Shown here in pieces: positions 29,852 through 40,040 of a stretch of DNA of 64,000 nt. Position numbers and translations under genes: made by a program. The notes under the pieces are model-generated. The model was not told the origin of the DNA. It worked only from the letters and a program-made list of their open reading frames with translations, and did no database searches. How positions within the stretch are numbered: position 1 is the first letter of the stretch; each line of letters opens with the position of its first letter. The stretch is from Planctomyces sp. (GTDB taxonomy: Bacteria > Planctomycetota > Planctomycetia > Planctomycetales > Planctomycetaceae): NCBI GenBank assembly GCA_019636235.1, contig JAHBXW010000022.1, forward strand, positions 1-64,000. Reading direction: 5' to 3'.

Positions 29852-30351
29852 TCTGAAACCTCGCGTCCGCGAACCACAGCGGCTCGCTGCGCGAACCTCG
29901 TCGAATGTTAGGGGTTGCGACCCGGATTTCCAGATTGCCCTGCGGCCGGGGGCTGCGAACGATGCCGTAAGCCGGCCCCGCGGGCCGCCAGCCATCACCC
30001 CCCGATTCCGGGAATTGGCGGAACTCGCGGAAGGCGGGAGACGTCATAATCCCGAGAACGATTGTCCCCGCCCGGTCCGTCTGGAACGTTGGTGCGGGCC
30101 AGGCGGCGTCGATCGGTCGTGGGGAGGCGAAGGATCGCCCGCGGCGTCCCTTTTCGGTTGACGCTGTTAGAAGTCCCAAGTTAGCTTTCGGTTATGTCAT
30201 TTCCGCTCGGGCGGGCGGGGGGATTCGGCCCCTGCTGGCCGGAGTTCATTTCCAGTGCGACAGACTCGCGGCGGCGCGACTGGCCCCGACAACGGACGGG
30301 ACCTGTCGGCGGCGGCGTGTTTCCTCTCAACACGGTGGGATGAGGTCCGCG
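29852..30351. other. intergenic region between the Rieske gene and the PilM operon
   Basis: About 500 bp without a convincing gene. It must hold promoters in both directions. A weak rightward candidate is TTGACG at 30158 with a 17-bp gap to TTAGCT at 30181; the -10 match is poor. Frames over this stretch read as shadows. The SD-like GAGG 6 nt upstream of ATG 30352 supports the pilM-like start chosen. Confidence 0.4.
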
Positions 30352-32502
30352 ATGGCGCAGAAACGTGCTGCCTGGGGCATCGACATCGGCCAGTCGTCGC
30401 TCAAAGCGATCAAGCTGCAGTATTCCGACGCGACCGATCAGGTCGTCGCCGTCGCGTTCGATTTCATCCAGTATCCGAAGATTCTCAGCCAGCCGGACGC
30501 GATCCCGGAAGAGATCATCGCCGAGTCGATGAAGACCTTCCTGACCCGGAACTCCATCAAGGACGACCTGATCGCCATCTCCGTGCCCGGCCATTCTTCG
30601 CTGGCGCGGTTCATTCAGTTGCCCCCGGTCGAGGCCAGCAAGCTGGCCGAGATCGTCAAGTACGAAGCCCGCCAGCAGATCCCCTTCGCGCTCGAGGAGG
30701 TGATCTGGGACTTCCAGCCGCTGGGCGCGGGAGTCGAAGAGGGAGGCTATCTGCTGGACGCCGAGGTTGGCCTGTTCGCGATGAAGCGCGACCAGGTGAT
30801 GAACGCCATGCGGCCGTTCACCTCGAACAAGCTCGAAATCGAACTCGTCCAGACCGCCCCGCTGGCGCTGTACAACGTCCTCAGCTTCGATGAGCTCGGA
30901 ATCCGGCGGGGCCAGCCGGTGTCCGCCCGCGACGAGTACACGATCGTGCTCGACATGGGCTGCGACAACACGACGCTGATGATCTCCAACGGCGCCAAAA
31001 TCTGGATTCGCAACGTCCCCATCGGCGGCAACCACTTCACCCGCGCGCTGACCAAGGAGATGAAGCTCAGCTTCGCCAAGGCCGAGCTGCTGAAGTGCAA
31101 CGCCACCAAGTCGCCGGACCCGCGGGCCGTGTTTCAGGCCCTCCGCCCGGTGTTCAACGATTACGTCTCTGAAATCCAGCGTTCGATCGGGTATTTCTCG
31201 AGCGTCAACCGGCAGGCCAAGGTGTCCAAGGTCCTGGGCCTGGGCAACGGGTTCAAGCTGGCCGGACTGCAGAAGTTTCTGCAGCAGAACCTGCAGTACG
31301 ACGTCGAGAAGCCGGATGCGTACCATTCGCTGGCCGGCGATTCGGTGATCAACGCGCCGTTGTTCAGCGACAACGTCCTGTCGTTCGCCGTGCCCTATGG
31401 CCTGGCGCTGCAGGCGCTCGATGTGACACGGATCCGCACCACGCTGCTCCCGCCGGAGATCGCCAGCGCCCGCATCATCCGCCGCAAGAAGCCGTGGGCC
31501 GCAATGACGGCGGCGATGCTGCTGGTCGCCGCCAGCCTGGGCGTCGCGGCCAGCGCGAACTCGTACTCCTACGTGCACAGCAAGGTGTTCGAGGACGCGG
31601 AGAAGGCGGCCGATGGCTTCGCTTCGGAGATTTCCGGCAAGCGGAGCGCGTACGAAGGGGAGAAAGGGAACTTCACCAAGGCCCGGCAGGACCTCGAGGC
31701 GCTGGTCGTCGGTCGCCGCGGCATGGACTGGATGGAGCTGTTCAACGCCGTCAACGACTGCCTCCCCAGGGACGGCAACGCCCAGCAGGATGAAATCCCG
31801 CTGACGCAGCGGAACCAGGTTTCGATTTCTCACCTCACGGCCCGCCGCGAAGGGGACGTCGGCGCCTGGTTCACCAGCCTGCCCGATCAGAGCTGGCTGG
31901 CCAAGGCGGATCGCGAGAACGCCCCGTCTGGCAGCGGCTACATCGTCACGCTGATCGGCAAGCACTGGCACTCCGATCCCGATCCCGAGCAGAACGACAT
32001 CCTGTATCTCCGCAACAACTTCCTGCGGAATCTGCAGCAGCCGACGGTGCAGCAGCCGGGTTACCCGCCGCGAGACATCACGCGGATGGGCATCTCGCAC
32101 GCGACGATCGTCGAGTACACGTCGAACAAGACCTGGATCCCGAAGAGCGGCCTGCAGGAGATCCAGTCCGGGCCGCGGGTGAACATCACGGAAAATCAGC
32201 CTCCGGCAGGCGCCCGCTCTAGCAGCGCCTTCGACGGGGACAGCTCGCTGTTTGGCCCGGGGCCAATCGGGGCGCCCTCGGTCGGATCCGGCGGCTCGGC
32301 CGACAGCATGATGCGGTCCAGCATGGGCGGCATGCGCGGCGCAGGCGGCGCCAGCTTCGGCCAGACGACGCGGCCCATGGACCCCGAGAACTACGACGAG
32401 GTCGAAGAGACGCAGTTCAAGATCGAGTTCGTGTTCAAGTACAAGCCGAAGTCGGAACGGACGACGCCGGCCGAGGAATCGGCCGAGGACGCCGGAGAAT
32501 GA
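30352..32502 (+). CDS. PilM-like actin-fold ATPase fused to a PilN-like membrane domain
   Basis: A 716-aa protein. ATG 30352 has GAGG 6 nt upstream; ATG 30340 has no such site. Residues 1-365 form a PilM/FtsA-type actin fold: 'WGIDIGQSSLKAIKL' (phosphate loop 1), 'IVLDMGCDNTTLMI' (loop 2) and 'VLGLGNGFKLAGL' (adenosine). A membrane segment follows at about 382-404, then a PilN-like extracytoplasmic part with a coiled coil (405-450). The tail is Gly/Met/Ser-rich (DSMMRSSMGGMRGAGG). Normal PilM (about 350 aa) and PilN are separate cytosolic and membrane proteins. No PilT/B/C/Q genes are near. It is first in a three-gene set with the next two genes. Confidence 0.85.
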   Translation: MAQKRAAWGIDIGQSSLKAIKLQYSDATDQVVAVAFDFIQYPKILSQPDAIPEEIIAESMKTFLTRNSIKDDLIAISVPGHSSLARFIQLPPVEASKLAEIVKYEARQQIPFALEEVIWDFQPLGAGVEEGGYLLDAEVGLFAMKRDQVMNAMRPFTSNKLEIELVQTAPLALYNVLSFDELGIRRGQPVSARDEYTIVLDMGCDNTTLMISNGAKIWIRNVPIGGNHFTRALTKEMKLSFAKAELLKCNATKSPDPRAVFQALRPVFNDYVSEIQRSIGYFSSVNRQAKVSKVLGLGNGFKLAGLQKFLQQNLQYDVEKPDAYHSLAGDSVINAPLFSDNVLSFAVPYGLALQALDVTRIRTTLLPPEIASARIIRRKKPWAAMTAAMLLVAASLGVAASANSYSYVHSKVFEDAEKAADGFASEISGKRSAYEGEKGNFTKARQDLEALVVGRRGMDWMELFNAVNDCLPRDGNAQQDEIPLTQRNQVSISHLTARREGDVGAWFTSLPDQSWLAKADRENAPSGSGYIVTLIGKHWHSDPDPEQNDILYLRNNFLRNLQQPTVQQPGYPPRDITRMGISHATIVEYTSNKTWIPKSGLQEIQSGPRVNITENQPPAGARSSSAFDGDSSLFGPGPIGAPSVGSGGSADSMMRSSMGGMRGAGGASFGQTTRPMDPENYDEVEETQFKIEFVFKYKPKSERTTPAEESAEDAGE

Positions 32503-32622
32503 CGCCCCGCCCGGGAACCCGCCGCGGCGCGGCCGCGTCGAAGTCTCCGGAAGGCGACTGAGCGTGTTGAGAGTCTGACGAAGCCATACCCCCGCCGGCC
32601 CCCGGCGGACAGGAGTCGAGCG

Positions 32623-34431
32623 ATGGACAAACTTCAGCCGATTCTCCAGCAGCGGTTCTGGATCCTGCTGGCGGTCTGTCTGGGCCTGGGAATCTTCGGA
32701 TTCTTCAAGGCGCAGTCGGCGCTCGTCGCCGCGACGGAAGCCCGCGAGCAGGTGCTGCGCGACAAGACCTCGAAGATCTCGAAGGGCGAGGAGCCGAACG
32801 ACAATTACGTCGTCCAGCTCAAGGAAATCAACCGCCAGTACGGAGGCCACATCCAGGACGCCGTGCGGGAACTGTTCGATGAGCAGCAGAAGCTGACGTG
32901 GTGGCCCGATTCCGTCGTGGCGAGGATTCCGAAGGACTACCGCACGGAGATCGAGACGTCCCCCGCGATCATCTACTCGAAGGAATATCCGGACCTGATC
33001 CACGAGTTGTGGAAAAAGGTCGAGCCGGTTGTGGAGAAGCCGGACATGGCGGGTCCCGCGGCGGGCGCGACGGCGGCACGGCCAATCGGTTCGCCGATGG
33101 GACGATCGCCATTGGGGCGTCCAGGCGCGACCCGGCCGCAGCGCGCCGGCGAGCCCGTCACGTGGCAGCAGAAGGTGTACTGCGATGAACTCGACCTGCC
33201 GCAGAAGGCGTTCGGCCGCGTCGTCCCCTGGCAGCAGGTGTGGGACGCGCAGGAAGACATCTGGTTCGTCGAGCGCGTGTTTGAGGCCGTCCGGGCCATC
33301 AATCGCAACGCCGACTCTCCGACCAACGCCGTCGTCCGCAAGATCAACCGCCTGGAGCTGCGCGGCGGCAGCGGCGAAGTCGGCGGAGAGGCGGAGGCGG
33401 GAGTCGAATCCGGCAGCAGCGACTATGCGAACATGAGCCGGATGATGATGAATCGCGGGGGCGGCGATCAGGGGGGCGGCGGAGGCGGCGACTTCTCCGC
33501 GGCGGTCCAGTTCGATCCCGCCGAGGAGTTCGGCTCCGACGCTGACAACAGCACCCCGGAAGATTCTGACGACAGCCCCGGCGGCCTGTCCGGAATGATG
33601 CGCGGCATGGGCGCCGCTGCCACGCTGCGCTGGATCAGGATGGAGGAGTCCAAGCCCTACCGCGAACGCGGGTTTTACCTCAGCGTGGTCATGCAGCAGG
33701 CCCAGGTTCCGGAGTTCATCATTGAACTGCTGAACTCCCCCTGGCCGATCCGTGTGGTCCGCGTGCAGATGGGTCCGAATCCTCATTATCGCGAGGAGGC
33801 TGGGGGCACGGGCGGCGGCTATTCGATGGGCGACAGCAGCATGGCCATGATGCGTGGCGGCTCTCGTCCCACCGGCGGGGATGGCGGCGCGCTGGGCGGC
33901 GGCAGCATGAGCAGCCTGGCCGGCGGACGGGGCTCACAGGGCGCCACCGGCATGATGCAGCGCGCCGCGGGCGGCGGCGGTCGCGGCGGTGCGATGGGCG
34001 CCGCGGGCGCTGGTCTGGCCTTCATCGGCAGTCCGAGCGACCCCTACGCCGGCTCACTGAACAATCCCGACCTGGTGCAGATCGATCTGGCCGGCATCAT
34101 CACGTTCTACATGCCGACCAAGGAAGATGGCACGTCCGCGGTCGAGACTCCGGCCGTCGACTCGCCGACGCTCGAGGAAGCCGTAGATGCGGACCTGCCG
34201 GCGGCGGAAGACGGCGCCGTGGACGGCGAGGAAATGCCGGTCGATCCGGAGTCCATTGAAGGGGATGCGCCAGCGGCGGATCCCGTTGACGCGCCGACAG
34301 AAGTTCCGGCCGATTTTGTCGAGCCGGCCGTGGAAGATGTTCCGGATCCGGCATTCGCGCCGGACGCCGGCCCCGAGGAACCCGACGACGCGGAAGCAGC
34401 GTTGGAGACCGTCGAAGAGACCGTTCCCTGA
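32623..34431 (+). CDS. single-pass envelope protein with Gly/Met-rich insertion (PilO-like position)
   Basis: A 602-aa protein. One N-terminal membrane helix (FWILLAVCLGLGIFGFF, about residues 12-28) is followed by an extracytoplasmic coiled-coil part. A low-complexity block (GGGDQGGGGGGDFS) lies near residue 285. A folded segment follows (about 325-390: 'ERGFYLSVVMQQAQVPEFI', 'PWPIRVVRVQMG'), then a second Gly/Met/Ser block (about 395-465) and an acidic Pro/Glu/Asp-rich tail. The folded segment recalls the ferredoxin-like fold of PilO/GspM, but this is inferred from position and topology. No enzyme motif is seen. It starts 120 bp after the PilM-like gene. Confidence 0.75.
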   Translation: MDKLQPILQQRFWILLAVCLGLGIFGFFKAQSALVAATEAREQVLRDKTSKISKGEEPNDNYVVQLKEINRQYGGHIQDAVRELFDEQQKLTWWPDSVVARIPKDYRTEIETSPAIIYSKEYPDLIHELWKKVEPVVEKPDMAGPAAGATAARPIGSPMGRSPLGRPGATRPQRAGEPVTWQQKVYCDELDLPQKAFGRVVPWQQVWDAQEDIWFVERVFEAVRAINRNADSPTNAVVRKINRLELRGGSGEVGGEAEAGVESGSSDYANMSRMMMNRGGGDQGGGGGGDFSAAVQFDPAEEFGSDADNSTPEDSDDSPGGLSGMMRGMGAAATLRWIRMEESKPYRERGFYLSVVMQQAQVPEFIIELLNSPWPIRVVRVQMGPNPHYREEAGGTGGGYSMGDSSMAMMRGGSRPTGGDGGALGGGSMSSLAGGRGSQGATGMMQRAAGGGGRGGAMGAAGAGLAFIGSPSDPYAGSLNNPDLVQIDLAGIITFYMPTKEDGTSAVETPAVDSPTLEEAVDADLPAAEDGAVDGEEMPVDPESIEGDAPAADPVDAPTEVPADFVEPAVEDVPDPAFAPDAGPEEPDDAEAALETVEETVP

Positions 34432-34551
34432 GTGAGTTTCGCAGCGCAGGGCGAATTGCCCTTGCGCGATCACACGACCTGAGACCCAGTCCCTGATTTC
34501 CCCGGCGTCGCCCTGGCGACGCCGATCACTCCCCGACCCCCGGGAGCCGCC

Positions 34552-37083
34552 ATGAAAGTCAAATTCAACGCCAAGAAGTTCCTCCTCGATCACGGCGAGA
34601 AGATCGGCCTCGCGGTCGTTGGCGTCGTGGTGCTGCTGGGGCTGGCCGGCGCTGACTGGAGGCCCTACGAAGGGAATCCCGCCGACATCACCGTGAAGGT
34701 GAACGACGGCAAGCGCGCGCATGCCCAGCACCAGTGGCCGGAGGGCGAGCGCAAGCAGTTCGACGTCCAGGAAAAGGACATGCCCCGCAGCGTGGTGCAT
34801 GCCAACCTGAAGCAGTCGTTTGATCTGTACGAGTACCAGTTCTCGACGGCCAAGTTCTTCCGCACGCCCTTCGAGCAGAAGGAGCCGCTGAAGGAGCCGA
34901 AATGGGCGAAGCTCGAAGACCCGCTCGCGGACGCCGGCCGCGTGCTGATCGCCACGGTCAGCGCCGACTCCAGGGCCAGCGATCCGTTGCTGGCGACGCC
35001 GGATTCGCCGGAGGCCGCGCCGGCGGACGACAGTCGCCCTGATGAATTCCGCTCTCGGACGCCGGGCGCCGGCGTCGGGACGGGGCAGCTTGGAACGGGC
35101 ACGTCGTCGAATCCGTATCTGGGCGGCCCGACGGCCGTAAACACGGGCCGCGGCGGTCCGCAGGGGGCTCAGGCGGGCGGCCGGGGACGCGGCAACCCGC
35201 CGGCCGCGGGCAACGCGGGGACCGCTCGCAACCGTCCTGCTGCGGGGCGCGGCGACTCGTCGGGCGGACTGCTCGGCGGCGATGATTCCGGCGGGTTGTT
35301 TAGCGGCAGCCCGTATGGCGGCAGCATGGCGTTCGGCGGCGGGATGGGCGGTCAGGAAGGGCGCGGCTTCCCGTATGTCGCGGTTCGCGCCGTGTTCCCG
35401 GTTCGCGATCAGATCACCCGCATTGCCCAGGCGACCAGCGAGTCGCTGGAGATGGCCGCTGGCCTGTTCGAGATTCTGGATTTTGACATCGAACGGCAGA
35501 CAATGCAGTTCGACGGCGAACCCTGGAGCGGCCCGTGGCAGCCCGTGGATCTGAACGTCACCCGGGACATTCTGGAGAAGATTTCCGCGGGCATTGAGGC
35601 GGATGTCGTCGCCGGGCAGGTGACCGATCCGGCCATCACCCAGCCGTTGCCCGCGCGGATCAGCGGCGTGTGGCTGAAGCACGCGACGCATCCGCGGATC
35701 GAAAAGTTCACGCTGTCTGAGGAACAGATTCAGCAGGAGATTGAGCTCAACGAGGCGATGCTGATGCAGTTCCAGGAGCAGCAGCGGCAGTTGCCTCCGC
35801 CGCCGGCCGAGAAGAAGGGTTGGTCCAACCTGCAGACCGACGCCAAGCAGATTCGCGCGATGGCGCTGGGCGGCGGGGGGGGCGGCGCCCTGGGCGGCGG
35901 CGGCGGCAGCAGTTATTACCAGCAGATGATGGGCAGCATGCGGATGGCCCCGCCAACGGCCGGCAGCGGCGGCGGGTCGGCGGCTTCGATGATGCAGCGG
36001 AATTCGTCGATGATGTCCGGCGGCGGACGCAGTTCCATGAACATGGGTCCCGGGCGAGGCTCTGCTCCTGGGCGCGGTCCGGCCGGCGCGCAGCCGCCGA
36101 AGGACGCTCCGCAGATCGAAGAGCTGTTGAACAAGCTGCCCGAAGAGCGGCGCGAAATGATGCGGAAGTACATCCAGGATATCGTCCAGGTGGACGGCGA
36201 ACTGCTGCTGTTCCGATACATCGATTTCAGCGTGGAACCGGGCTACACGTACCGGTATCGCGTGCGGCTGGTGTTCCGGAATCCGAACTTCGGGCGCAAG
36301 GAAGCAGAGGCGGGGGGCGATCGGACGATCGTTTCCGGCGAGACGCGGACTTCGGAGTGGTCGGACCCGACGTCTCCGGCGCGGGTCGACAAGTTCCAGC
36401 ATTACTTCGTGGCGGACGTCAAGTCGCCGCCTGGACGCGCCTACCCCGTGCCGCGTCTGAACATCTACCAGTGGGACACCTCGCTGGGGACGACGCAGCA
36501 GGCGGAGCTGGACCTGGCGCTGGGGCAGACGGTGTCCGGCAAGGTCAAGACGAAGGTCCTCGATCCGGCGAAGCAGTCGTTCGAGGAGAAGGATTACACG
36601 TTCCAGTCCACGGACTTCACCGTCGACGCGCTGCCGGACCTGGCGCTGGAGAGCAGCGTGCATGAGATCAAGCCGCTGGGCGGAATGACGCGGGGCGACC
36701 TGCGTCTGGACAAGCAGGTGCTGGTCGCGACGTCCGAAGGGGACCTGGTGCTGCTGGATCCCTCGGCCCAGGAGAAGCAGGCGAAGGACCAGTCCGACAT
36801 GCTGAAGTGGCAGAACGAGGACTATCAGCACCTCCTGGAGGGTCGCGCTCCTCAGGGCGGCCTGGGAGGGGATCTGATGGACATGTACTCGCGGTCCGGG
36901 ATGGGCATGGGGGGCGCGGGACGAGGCGCGAACCCGCTGTCGCGGCGCGGCGGCGGCGGTCGCGGCATGGGGTCGATGGGCTCGATGGGGTCCATGGACT
37001 CGAATCGCAGCATGCCTGCGGGGGCCGGAGGCCGGGGCGCGACCGGTTCGCGGCCTGAGGCCCGACGGGGGCCCGGCGGGTGA
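34552..37083 (+). CDS. large single-pass Gly/Met/Ser-rich envelope protein
   Basis: An 843-aa protein. A short basic N-terminus (MKVKFNAKKFLLDHGEK) precedes one membrane helix (IGLAVVGVVVLLGLAGA, about 18-34). Two folded regions alternate with low-complexity blocks: a Gly/Pro/Arg block (about 180-265), a folded part (about 275-440, 'FPYVAVRAVFPVRDQI'), a Gly/Met/Ser block (about 440-515), a beta-rich part (about 520-760, 'EPGYTYRYRVRLVFRNPNF'), and a tail with tandem M-G-S units. I do not recognise the family. It is the last gene of the PilM-like set; a terminator follows 44 bp after its stop. Confidence 0.75.
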   Translation: MKVKFNAKKFLLDHGEKIGLAVVGVVVLLGLAGADWRPYEGNPADITVKVNDGKRAHAQHQWPEGERKQFDVQEKDMPRSVVHANLKQSFDLYEYQFSTAKFFRTPFEQKEPLKEPKWAKLEDPLADAGRVLIATVSADSRASDPLLATPDSPEAAPADDSRPDEFRSRTPGAGVGTGQLGTGTSSNPYLGGPTAVNTGRGGPQGAQAGGRGRGNPPAAGNAGTARNRPAAGRGDSSGGLLGGDDSGGLFSGSPYGGSMAFGGGMGGQEGRGFPYVAVRAVFPVRDQITRIAQATSESLEMAAGLFEILDFDIERQTMQFDGEPWSGPWQPVDLNVTRDILEKISAGIEADVVAGQVTDPAITQPLPARISGVWLKHATHPRIEKFTLSEEQIQQEIELNEAMLMQFQEQQRQLPPPPAEKKGWSNLQTDAKQIRAMALGGGGGGALGGGGGSSYYQQMMGSMRMAPPTAGSGGGSAASMMQRNSSMMSGGGRSSMNMGPGRGSAPGRGPAGAQPPKDAPQIEELLNKLPEERREMMRKYIQDIVQVDGELLLFRYIDFSVEPGYTYRYRVRLVFRNPNFGRKEAEAGGDRTIVSGETRTSEWSDPTSPARVDKFQHYFVADVKSPPGRAYPVPRLNIYQWDTSLGTTQQAELDLALGQTVSGKVKTKVLDPAKQSFEEKDYTFQSTDFTVDALPDLALESSVHEIKPLGGMTRGDLRLDKQVLVATSEGDLVLLDPSAQEKQAKDQSDMLKWQNEDYQHLLEGRAPQGGLGGDLMDMYSRSGMGMGGAGRGANPLSRRGGGGRGMGSMGSMGSMDSNRSMPAGAGGRGATGSRPEARRGPGG
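36966..37001 (+). repeat. four tandem 9-bp units in the 3' end of the Gly/Met-rich gene
   Basis: Four in-frame 9-bp units, with consensus ATGGGGTCG and minor changes, encode Met-Gly-Ser three times and Met-Asp-Ser once. Such repeats are prone to slippage and may change length between strains. Confidence 0.8.
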
Positions 37084-37126
37084 GGCGAACCGGCCGAAGA
37101 CGGCCGGCCCAGTGAAAGGTCTTTCG

Positions 37127-37159
37127 AGCCCGGATCGCGACACGCGGTCCGGGCTTTTT
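37127..37159 (+). terminator. Rho-independent terminator of the PilM-like operon
   Basis: A perfect 8-bp stem (37127-37134 with 37148-37155) is followed by a T-run. A second GC hairpin (7-bp stem, 37090-37107) lies just before it. The rest of the 328-bp gap to the MFS gene shows no gene. Confidence 0.85.
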
Positions 37160-37411: not shown

Positions 37412-38686
37412 ATGAGCGACGCTGCCGCGATCAAGACCGACCCCGCGGTCAAAATGAAGCTGTTCGTGATGATGATCATCGAGATCTTCATCTGGGGCGC
37501 CTGGCAGCCGAAGATCAACCCCTACATGGACATGCTGGGGTTCAGCGGGCTGGAAAAGGGCCTGGTGAACAGCGCGTTCGGCATCGCGGCGCTTTTGGGC
37601 ATCTTCTTCAGCAACCAGTTCGCCGACCGGAATTTTTCGGCGGAGCGGTTTCTGGCGTTCAGTCATGTCGTGGGCGGGCTGGGGCTGCTGGGGGCCTGGC
37701 ACTTCAAAGAGTTCTGGCCGTTCTTCGCGTGTTTCCTGGCCTACGCGATCCTGTTCGTGCCCACGATTTCGGTGACGAACTCGCTGGCTTTCGCCAACCT
37801 GCGCAGCCCTGCGCAAGAGTTCGGGTTCGTGCGGATGGGGGGCACGATCGGCTGGATCATCGCGTCGTGGCCGTTCGTGTTTCTGTTGCAGAAGAAGACC
37901 GGCCCGGACCTGCAGAACGCCACGAGCTGGATCTTTCTGGTGGGCGCGATCGCCTCGTTCGTGATGGCGGCCTACAGCCTGACGCTGCCGCACACGCCGC
38001 CCCGCAAGGACGCCGCCGGCATGGACGCGCTGGCTTGGCGAAGGGCGCTCAGCCTGCTGGCCGTTCCCGCGGTGCTGGTGCTGTACATCGTCACGTTCAT
38101 CGATTCCTTCATCCACAACGGTTACTTCGTGATGACGGACGGGTTCCTGACGAATCGGGTGGGCATTTCGCCGAGCGTGAGCATGGTGGTGATGAGCATC
38201 GGTCAGGTGGCCGAGATCGTGACGATGCTGGTGCTGGGCCTGGTGCTGACGCGGCTGGGCTGGAAGACGACGATGCTGATCGGCATTCTGGGGCATGCGC
38301 TGCGGTTCGCCGCGTACGCGTATCTGCCGGACAACAAGGAGCTGATCATCGCGGTGCAGGTGCTGCACGGCATCTGTTACGCGTTCTTCTTCGCGACGGT
38401 GTACATCTTTGTGGACGCGGTGTTCCCCAAGGATGTGCGGGCCAGCGCCCAGGGGTTGTTCAACCTGATGATTCTGGGCATCGGCATGGTGGGCGCGGGC
38501 TTCTTCTTCCCGTGGCTGCAGTCGATGCTGACGACAAAGGTGGATGGCGTGGACGTGGTCGACTACCAGACGCTGTTCCTGTGGCCGACGGGGATGGCGA
38601 TCGTGGCGATGCTGCTGCTGGGATTGTGCTTCCATCCGCCCAAAGGCGAGGCTGCGCTCGACGGGGCGGCCGCACCGCCGCACTGA
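37412..38686 (+). CDS. MFS transporter, nucleoside:H+ symporter-like (NupG type)
   Basis: A 424-aa protein with 12 expected helices. ATG 37412 has GGAG about 9 nt upstream. The layout ('EIFIWGAWQPKINPYMDML', 'FVRMGGTIGWIIASW', and the late 'FFATVYIFVDAVFPKD') matches the nucleoside:H+ symporter group of the MFS. The substrate is inferred from the family and could be another small solute. The next gene, 4 bp downstream, is a related transporter; both share a central L-P-H-T-P-P motif. Confidence 0.85.
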   Translation: MSDAAAIKTDPAVKMKLFVMMIIEIFIWGAWQPKINPYMDMLGFSGLEKGLVNSAFGIAALLGIFFSNQFADRNFSAERFLAFSHVVGGLGLLGAWHFKEFWPFFACFLAYAILFVPTISVTNSLAFANLRSPAQEFGFVRMGGTIGWIIASWPFVFLLQKKTGPDLQNATSWIFLVGAIASFVMAAYSLTLPHTPPRKDAAGMDALAWRRALSLLAVPAVLVLYIVTFIDSFIHNGYFVMTDGFLTNRVGISPSVSMVVMSIGQVAEIVTMLVLGLVLTRLGWKTTMLIGILGHALRFAAYAYLPDNKELIIAVQVLHGICYAFFFATVYIFVDAVFPKDVRASAQGLFNLMILGIGMVGAGFFFPWLQSMLTTKVDGVDVVDYQTLFLWPTGMAIVAMLLLGLCFHPPKGEAALDGAAAPPH

Positions 38687-38690
38687 CGAC

Positions 38691-40040
38691 ATGGCCAGCG
38701 CCGTTCCGCGGATTCTTCGACGGCGGCTGAGCATCCTGTGGATTCTCGAGTGGGGAATCACGGGAGCGATCCTGACGTACCTGCCGCTGTACTTCACGCA
38801 GCACGGCCTGACGCTGGACGAGACGGGTCCGGTCCTGGCGATCGGGGCGATCGGCCTGTGGGCGGCGCCGATCGTCGTGGGCCAGATCTGCGACCGGTGG
38901 GTGGCGGCCCAGCGATACCTGGCCGTCGCGCACTTCTGCGGCGGGGTCGTCCTGTTGACGATCCCGGCGGCGACGGAGGTGTATCGCGAAACGGGGGCGG
39001 GCTATGGATTGATCCTGACCCTGTTCGGCACGTTTGCGGCCGTCTACCTGCCGACGATCCCCCTGGCCAGCGCGCTGACGTTCCGGCATCTGTCCGATCC
39101 CAAGACCCAGTTCGGCGGAATCCGGGTCTGGGGCACCGTGGGCTGGGTGTTGGCCGGAATCGGGCTGTCGCTGTGGCTGGAACAAAGGGAGGTCGCGGCC
39201 TGGCTGCGGCAGATGTTCCCGTCGACGGCGTCCGGGATTTATGCAGTGGCGCGGCGGTTCTGGTTTCTGCCCGAGCCGAACAGCAGCCACTGTTTCGCGA
39301 TGGCGGCGATACTGTCGTTCGCGCTGTCGAGCTTCTGCGCGTTCCTGCCGCACACGCCGCCGCTGCACACGTCCCGGGAAGCGGGTTCGCCGGTGGGCTG
39401 GCTGGGCAGCCTGTGGCGGCAGAAAGGGCTGACGCGGCTGCTGGTGGTCGGCAGTCTGCTGGCCCTGGTGATTCCGCTGTACTCGCTGGTGGTTCCGAAG
39501 CTGCTGGAGCAGAAGGTGGCCCGGGACTGGGTGCCGGCGGTGATGACGGTCGGGCAATTGTCGGAATTTCCGGCGCTGCTGCTGCTGCCGTGGTGCCTGC
39601 GGTCGCTGGGGCTGAAGGCGACGTTTGCGATCGGCATTGTGGCCTGGATCGTCCGGTATGCGCTGTTCGCGGTGATGGCGCCGTTTCCGTGGATCCTGTT
39701 CGGCATCGCGCTGCATGGCGTCTGCCATGTGTACCTGATCATCGTCGTGCAGCTGTATGTGGACGGGGCCTGTCCGCGCGACTTGCGCGCCACGGCGCAG
39801 AATCTGTTCGCGTTCGTGACGGGGGGCATCGCGATGCCCCTGGGGTTGATGCTGACGCAGCCGCTGGTTCGCTGGAGCACCGATCCGGCGACGGGGGACA
39901 TCGATTTCGGGCCGTTGTTCGCCGCGCCGACAGCCTTCCTGGCCTGCGTGATTCTGGCGTTCTGGAAATGGTTCCCGCTGGAGGAGGGGGATGCCGCCGA
40001 CGCGTCCCATCCGGCATCCTCAGGCGGCGGCAGCGTCTGA
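38691..40040 (+). CDS. MFS transporter, paralogue of the preceding gene
   Basis: A 449-aa protein with about 12 helices, starting at ATG 38691, 4 bp after the upstream stop. Its pattern ('[18 protein letters not shown]', '[16 protein letters not shown]', LPHTPP, and the late '[17 protein letters not shown]') parallels the preceding transporter, so the pair looks like an old tandem duplication. Substrates are unknown. The stop lies 13 bp before trmL. Confidence 0.85.

Follow-up and report, generated by a model that had tools for sequence, protein, structure and literature searches.

Three genes, here designated A, B and C, follow one another on the forward strand of the window (the whole stretch of 64,000 nucleotides analysed). 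Gene A (30352-32502) encodes a protein of 716 amino acids. Its open frame begins slightly upstream at an ATG at 30340, giving a 720-residue frame, and family members use the ATG at 30352. B (32623-34431) and C (34552-37083) encode proteins of 602 and 843 amino acids, respectively, each with one N-terminal hydrophobic helix. The operon ends in an intrinsic terminator at 37126-37156 on the same strand, comprising a hairpin with a 14-bp stem and a 3-nt loop (-27.3 kcal/mol, z -3.7) and a T run; this was overlooked by a simple scan. The open reading frames and the hairpin thus agree with the original prediction of three genes and a terminator, the second and third genes encoding large single-pass proteins. 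A promoter scan of the upstream region (30180-30351, forward strand) found no sigma-70-like promoter. The neighbouring genes are unrelated to A-B-C, being Rieske, DnaJ-like and GrpE-like genes on the opposite strand 5′ to A, and MFS transporter genes on the 3′ side. Two MFS genes adjoin each other past the terminator; that at 37412-38686 belongs to the nucleoside H+ symporter family (Pfam, 2e-135), and that at 38691-40040 looks similar.

The N-terminal part of A (residues ~1-360) is a PilM actin-like ATPase domain. It lies over the cut-offs of Pfam PilM_2 (7.9e-33) and TIGR01175 pilM (2e-45), and matches the M. xanthus PilM structure entry 3jc8 (1.6e-28). The domain is followed by the sequence TTLLPPE at residues 363-369, which is the N-terminal motif of PilN, and then by basic residues, a transmembrane helix and a periplasmic PilN-like domain containing a Gly/Ser-rich insertion at ~600-680. 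An (I)NLLP start is found in the majority of A proteins phylum-wide, distant relatives included, and in the phylum's stand-alone PilN proteins. When the C-terminal part of A is compared with the latter by profile-profile alignment, the deep set reaches probabilities of 97-98% and the family set 81-86%; the deep set gives 39-48% against PilO and ~1% or less against PilP, and block-shuffled controls give <1%. The PilM matches, the NLLP motif and the PilN probability relative to PilO, PilP and the controls therefore identify A, at the level of sequence, as a PilM ATPase fused to PilN, as had been predicted. The PilM part is highly conserved across the family, with 20-residue blocks mostly >70% and up to 97% in column identity, in contrast to the variable periplasmic parts.

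This extreme conservation of the ATPase domain is found in organisms whose class, the Planctomycetia, has lost FtsZ and FtsA (PMC10632474), and A weakly passes the Pfam FtsA model (9.9e-08). A might then be an FtsA-like factor in FtsZ-less division, with B and C as envelope-linking division proteins. Yet the PilM matches are far stronger, the score against TIGR01174 is 22 bits where the cut-off is 176, so that A falls outside the FtsA family, and neither the PilN segment nor the secretin linkage described below has a counterpart in division. We regard a role in division as very improbable.

Protein B comprises an N-terminal transmembrane helix and coiled coil, a split beta-alpha-beta-beta core, long Gly/Met-rich insertions and an acidic C-terminus. 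Neither B nor any of 22 family members has a meaningful match in Pfam or NCBIfam. Profile-profile comparison with canonical PilO gives a probability of 95% for all B proteins in global mode and 76-78% for the short B proteins of deep relatives, against 2-16% for PilN and <=3% for PilP. A profile made from the family only, and so rich in Gly/Met insertions, gives 4% against PilO. With the Pfam PilO model, 86 of 147 genomes yield canonical PilO above the cut-off, and among the matches listed in those 147 genomes none falls at B. B is probably a divergent PilO, but not certainly so, because the deep and combined profiles reach 76-95% while the family set gives 4% and no PilO match is listed.

Protein C has an N-terminal transmembrane helix, a conserved domain at ~270-400, an fn3-like stretch at ~545-615, a beta-rich domain at ~617-735 and Gly/Met-rich tails. 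The corresponding stretch in a deep relative matches fn3 at 0.0042; otherwise neither C nor any of 22 family members has a meaningful Pfam or NCBIfam match. C occupies the position of PilP, and was compared with it as a candidate homologue. The profile-profile probability is <1%, and C has a transmembrane helix where PilP is a lipoprotein. In the lack of any PilP signal we reject that identity. The original prediction, which was to be given up if the last two proteins proved to be clear PilO and PilP homologues, survives this comparison. Profile searches of the PDB with B and C gave nothing significant. One profile of B aligned with the structure of Amuc_1100 (E 0.15-0.22), but the aligned region was the coiled coil and the match did not survive a broader profile; we therefore discount it. 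AlphaFold2 models were unusable (pLDDT 34 for B and 29 for C), the alignment including one relative, L022. Gly/Met/Ser-rich insertions and tails of B and C lie at 33400-34250, 35900-36150 and 36850-37080 of the window; these are kept in the family and absent in the shorter deep relatives. There are also Gly/Gln-rich stretches in the secretin discussed below.

How widespread is the A-B-C arrangement? A has matches in 97 of 101 family genomes, 93 of them at E<1e-100 and the remaining four partial or weak, and at phylum level 200 of 236 good Planctomycetota genomes are matched by the A profile (E<=1e-3), although the weakest of these matches may stem from canonical PilM. A scan of genome contigs finds one locus only. 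A synteny survey, proposed in the original prediction, shows that the A-B-C order is kept in all 21 family loci read while the flanks otherwise vary, and such preservation amid changing flanks is far beyond chance. The survey was extended to 40 loci of other families and classes, in most of which two open reading frames on the same strand follow A in the places of B and C. In at least 12 relatives outside the family, including a locus of the same class (L100), these are followed in turn by a secretin; in two loci (L104 and L106) a secretin instead lies a few genes upstream of A.

Several other features were observed in these surroundings. Among the 61 loci, four contain GspG-like genes, three of them deep and the fourth from the family. 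The genes upstream of A in deep relatives were considered as possible pilins and rejected, as they are housekeeping genes (UDG, MiaA, radical SAM, cytidylyltransferase). A divergent GH38/GH57-like gene (~950-1090 aa) lies upstream of A in 13 of the 21 family loci (L069, L073, L077-L082, L084-L087 and L022), often with cytidylate kinase beyond it, and is absent from the window. Same-class genomes also encode a second, very divergent PilM-like protein of ~850 aa (L129:8641-11229 and L131:8513-11056, both on the minus strand), which forms its own branch in the PilM tree; there are GspG-like genes upstream of it in L129.

The order PilM, PilN, probable PilO, C and then, in relatives, a secretin resembles the pilMNOPQ arrangement of the type IVa pilus. 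A-B-C could be an ordinary alignment complex (PilM-N-O-P) for twitching or adhesion whose partners are merely scattered in the genome, and a run of PilB-PilT-PilB-PilC genes on contig C34 would be in keeping with this. Against it stand the fusion of PilM with PilN, the dissimilarity of C to PilP and the large Gly/Met-rich insertions in B and C. Moreover, in a tree of PilM domains the A proteins form one group of 48 rows (support 94/95) apart from the canonical PilM of the phylum, and canonical PilM-N-O-P loci coexist separately with A-B-C in several relatives, such as G038, G019, G216 and G140. We consider an ordinary pilus complex unlikely.

Within the window, whole-genome family searches place no secretin, T2SSE-type ATPase, T2SSF or N-methyl prepilin gene. 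To that extent the original description of a system devoid of pilus partners was correct, but it fails for the genome as a whole, where a secretin, the PilB, PilT and PilC genes of C34 and 50 genes with an N-methyl prepilin signal are found elsewhere. The search for secretin and pilin genes elsewhere, suggested as a check, thus speaks against a partnerless set. Most of the prepilin-like genes encode 330-430 aa and are singly scattered over the genome. The secretin is a protein of 1344 aa encoded on a contig other than that of A-B-C (G000:C45:182291-186322), and is matched by the secretin 3′ to C in L100 at 2e-143. The idea that it is absent from the genome is therefore rejected. Because a secretin follows C in many relatives and the genome's own orthologue lies on C45, with further parts elsewhere, A-B-C cannot be called partnerless. 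Orthologues of the C45 type occur family-wide, ~10 kb from A in G005 and on another contig in G060. The secretins of deep relatives have N-terminal TPRs and a secretin domain; TPR Pfam models give no match on the C45 protein. Here, and in each of the five other family genomes that were read, the secretin gene is preceded by a gene for a SurA-like PPIase lipoprotein (G000:C45:186.6-187.8k, equivalent to L026:12608-13834, minus strand; also in L165-L169), which is likely to be a dedicated folding or targeting factor for the secretin. In deep relatives two secretin-like genes are found in tandem or within ~10 kb of each other, several near A-B-C; examples are L128 (842 and 799 aa), G103:C36, G107:C4, G112:C12 and G153:C106.

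The genome also contains components of a type II secretion system. The alignment complexes of type II systems and type IV pili are related, and by this scaffold logic A-B-C might be compared with GspL-GspM-GspC-GspD and form the inner-membrane part (GspL/M/C) of an enzyme exporter. That planctomycetes encode many secreted CAZymes (PMC11131199) would fit such a role. However, the type II set of the genome is on other contigs: a pseudopilin cluster at C3:93-101k has its own PilM/GspL-like protein and a protein matching Pfam PilO, and at C1:61-67k GspE adjoins a protein of 1319 aa in which Secretin_N matches five times. A-B-C is not encoded with these pseudopilins, and the GspL and PilO proteins of C3 are separate from it, which makes enzyme export quite improbable. 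A-B-C is distinct both from the type II set and from the canonical PilMNOP loci, and to this extent the original prediction was right. Elsewhere, consecutive open reading frames of 505, 729 and 1051 aa at G000:C41:98.3-103.5k contain several T2SSF (PilC-type) domains, an unusual array of platform proteins near which lie two prepilin-like genes.

Among known systems, A-B-C comes closest to the Amuc_1098-1102 (MUL2) locus of the Verrucomicrobial gut bacterium Akkermansia, which encodes a secretin, two uncharacterised proteins, a PilM-like protein and a pilin-like protein. The order of PilM-like protein, two unknowns and secretin is common to both. The best overall NCBIfam match of A is Amuc_1101_fam (3e-54), and the alignment runs past the PilM domain through the PilN part to residue 511 of the 720-residue frame; the score is nevertheless 185 bits where the equivalog cut-off is 650. 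The secretin in the deep-relative locus L124 has its best match to Amuc_1098_fam at 5e-21 and the C45 secretin matches it at 1e-16, both below the cut-off. The Akkermansia PilQ/Amuc_1098 secretin carries TPRs (PMC4960237), as do the N-termini of the deep-relative secretins. There are differences, however. Neither B nor C significantly matches Amuc_1100 or Amuc_1099 (NCBIfam, 22 family members each), no Amuc_1102-like pilin was recognised beside A in the window or among the upstream neighbours examined in deep relatives, and in this genome the secretin is detached from A-B-C. Since the core resembles MUL2, A-B-C is not wholly undescribed as a kind. What stands of the claim to an undescribed system is that planctomycetes have here a real and conserved variant of the alignment complex of type IV pili, uncharacterised but not categorically new.

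Our preferred reading of these comparisons, to which we give a probability of roughly two-thirds, is that A-B-C serves as the alignment complex, in the inner membrane, for a type IV pilus-like secretin machine found throughout the Planctomycetota. The working scheme of PilM-N-O-P-Q in type IVa pili is established. By analogy, the PilM domain of A would bind, on the cytoplasmic side, the PilN segment of the same protein; A would pair with B in PilN/O fashion to span the periplasm and form a collar there; and C, in the PilP position, would connect them to the secretin. A fibre built from at least one of the 50 prepilin-like proteins would then be pushed out and pulled back through the secretin by the PilB, PilT and PilC proteins of C34. 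As a counterpoint, there is no assembly ATPase or PilC gene beside A-B-C in any of the 61 loci (~1.08 Mb), in which PilB, PilT and PilC homologues were sought by phmmer with own-genome queries.

What might such a machine do? MUL2 is reported to be the attachment and glycan-uptake machinery of Akkermansia (PMC13174399), and planctomycetes bind dextran on pili-like fibres that emanate from crateriform structures joining both membranes, and its uptake is active (PMC5394234). Together these make glycan capture plausible, and surface attachment with capture or uptake of large polymers is the role we tentatively favour for A-B-C. We are more doubtful that A-B-C, the TPR-secretin and the PPIase lipoprotein make up the trans-envelope core of the crateriform complexes themselves, as an active machine drawing fibre-bound polysaccharides into the enlarged periplasm, its crateriform character being due to the Gly/Met-rich insertions of the class. 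Both would join inner and outer membranes and carry a fibre. But the operon extends beyond the class, and the Phycisphaeraceae are reported to be devoid of crateriform structures (PMC8882080); this makes crateriform identity less likely than glycan capture. Three pilQ-like genes of Planctopirus limnophila (Plim_0794, 3284 and 3688) are described as dispensable in the laboratory, in a passage that gives no uptake phenotype (PMC11958385).

The route by which planctomycetes take up large polymers has not been identified, and the descriptions of their fibres and crateriform structures consulted here name no genes for them. A-B-C is conserved throughout the phylum, is close to single-copy and has a defined secretin partner; as a gene set it is also open to deletion in P. 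limnophila, which is genetically tractable. Our analysis also suggests that the mucin-capture locus of Akkermansia and the planctomycete machine are of common ancestry, and may represent a variant of the type IV filament that is PVC-wide.
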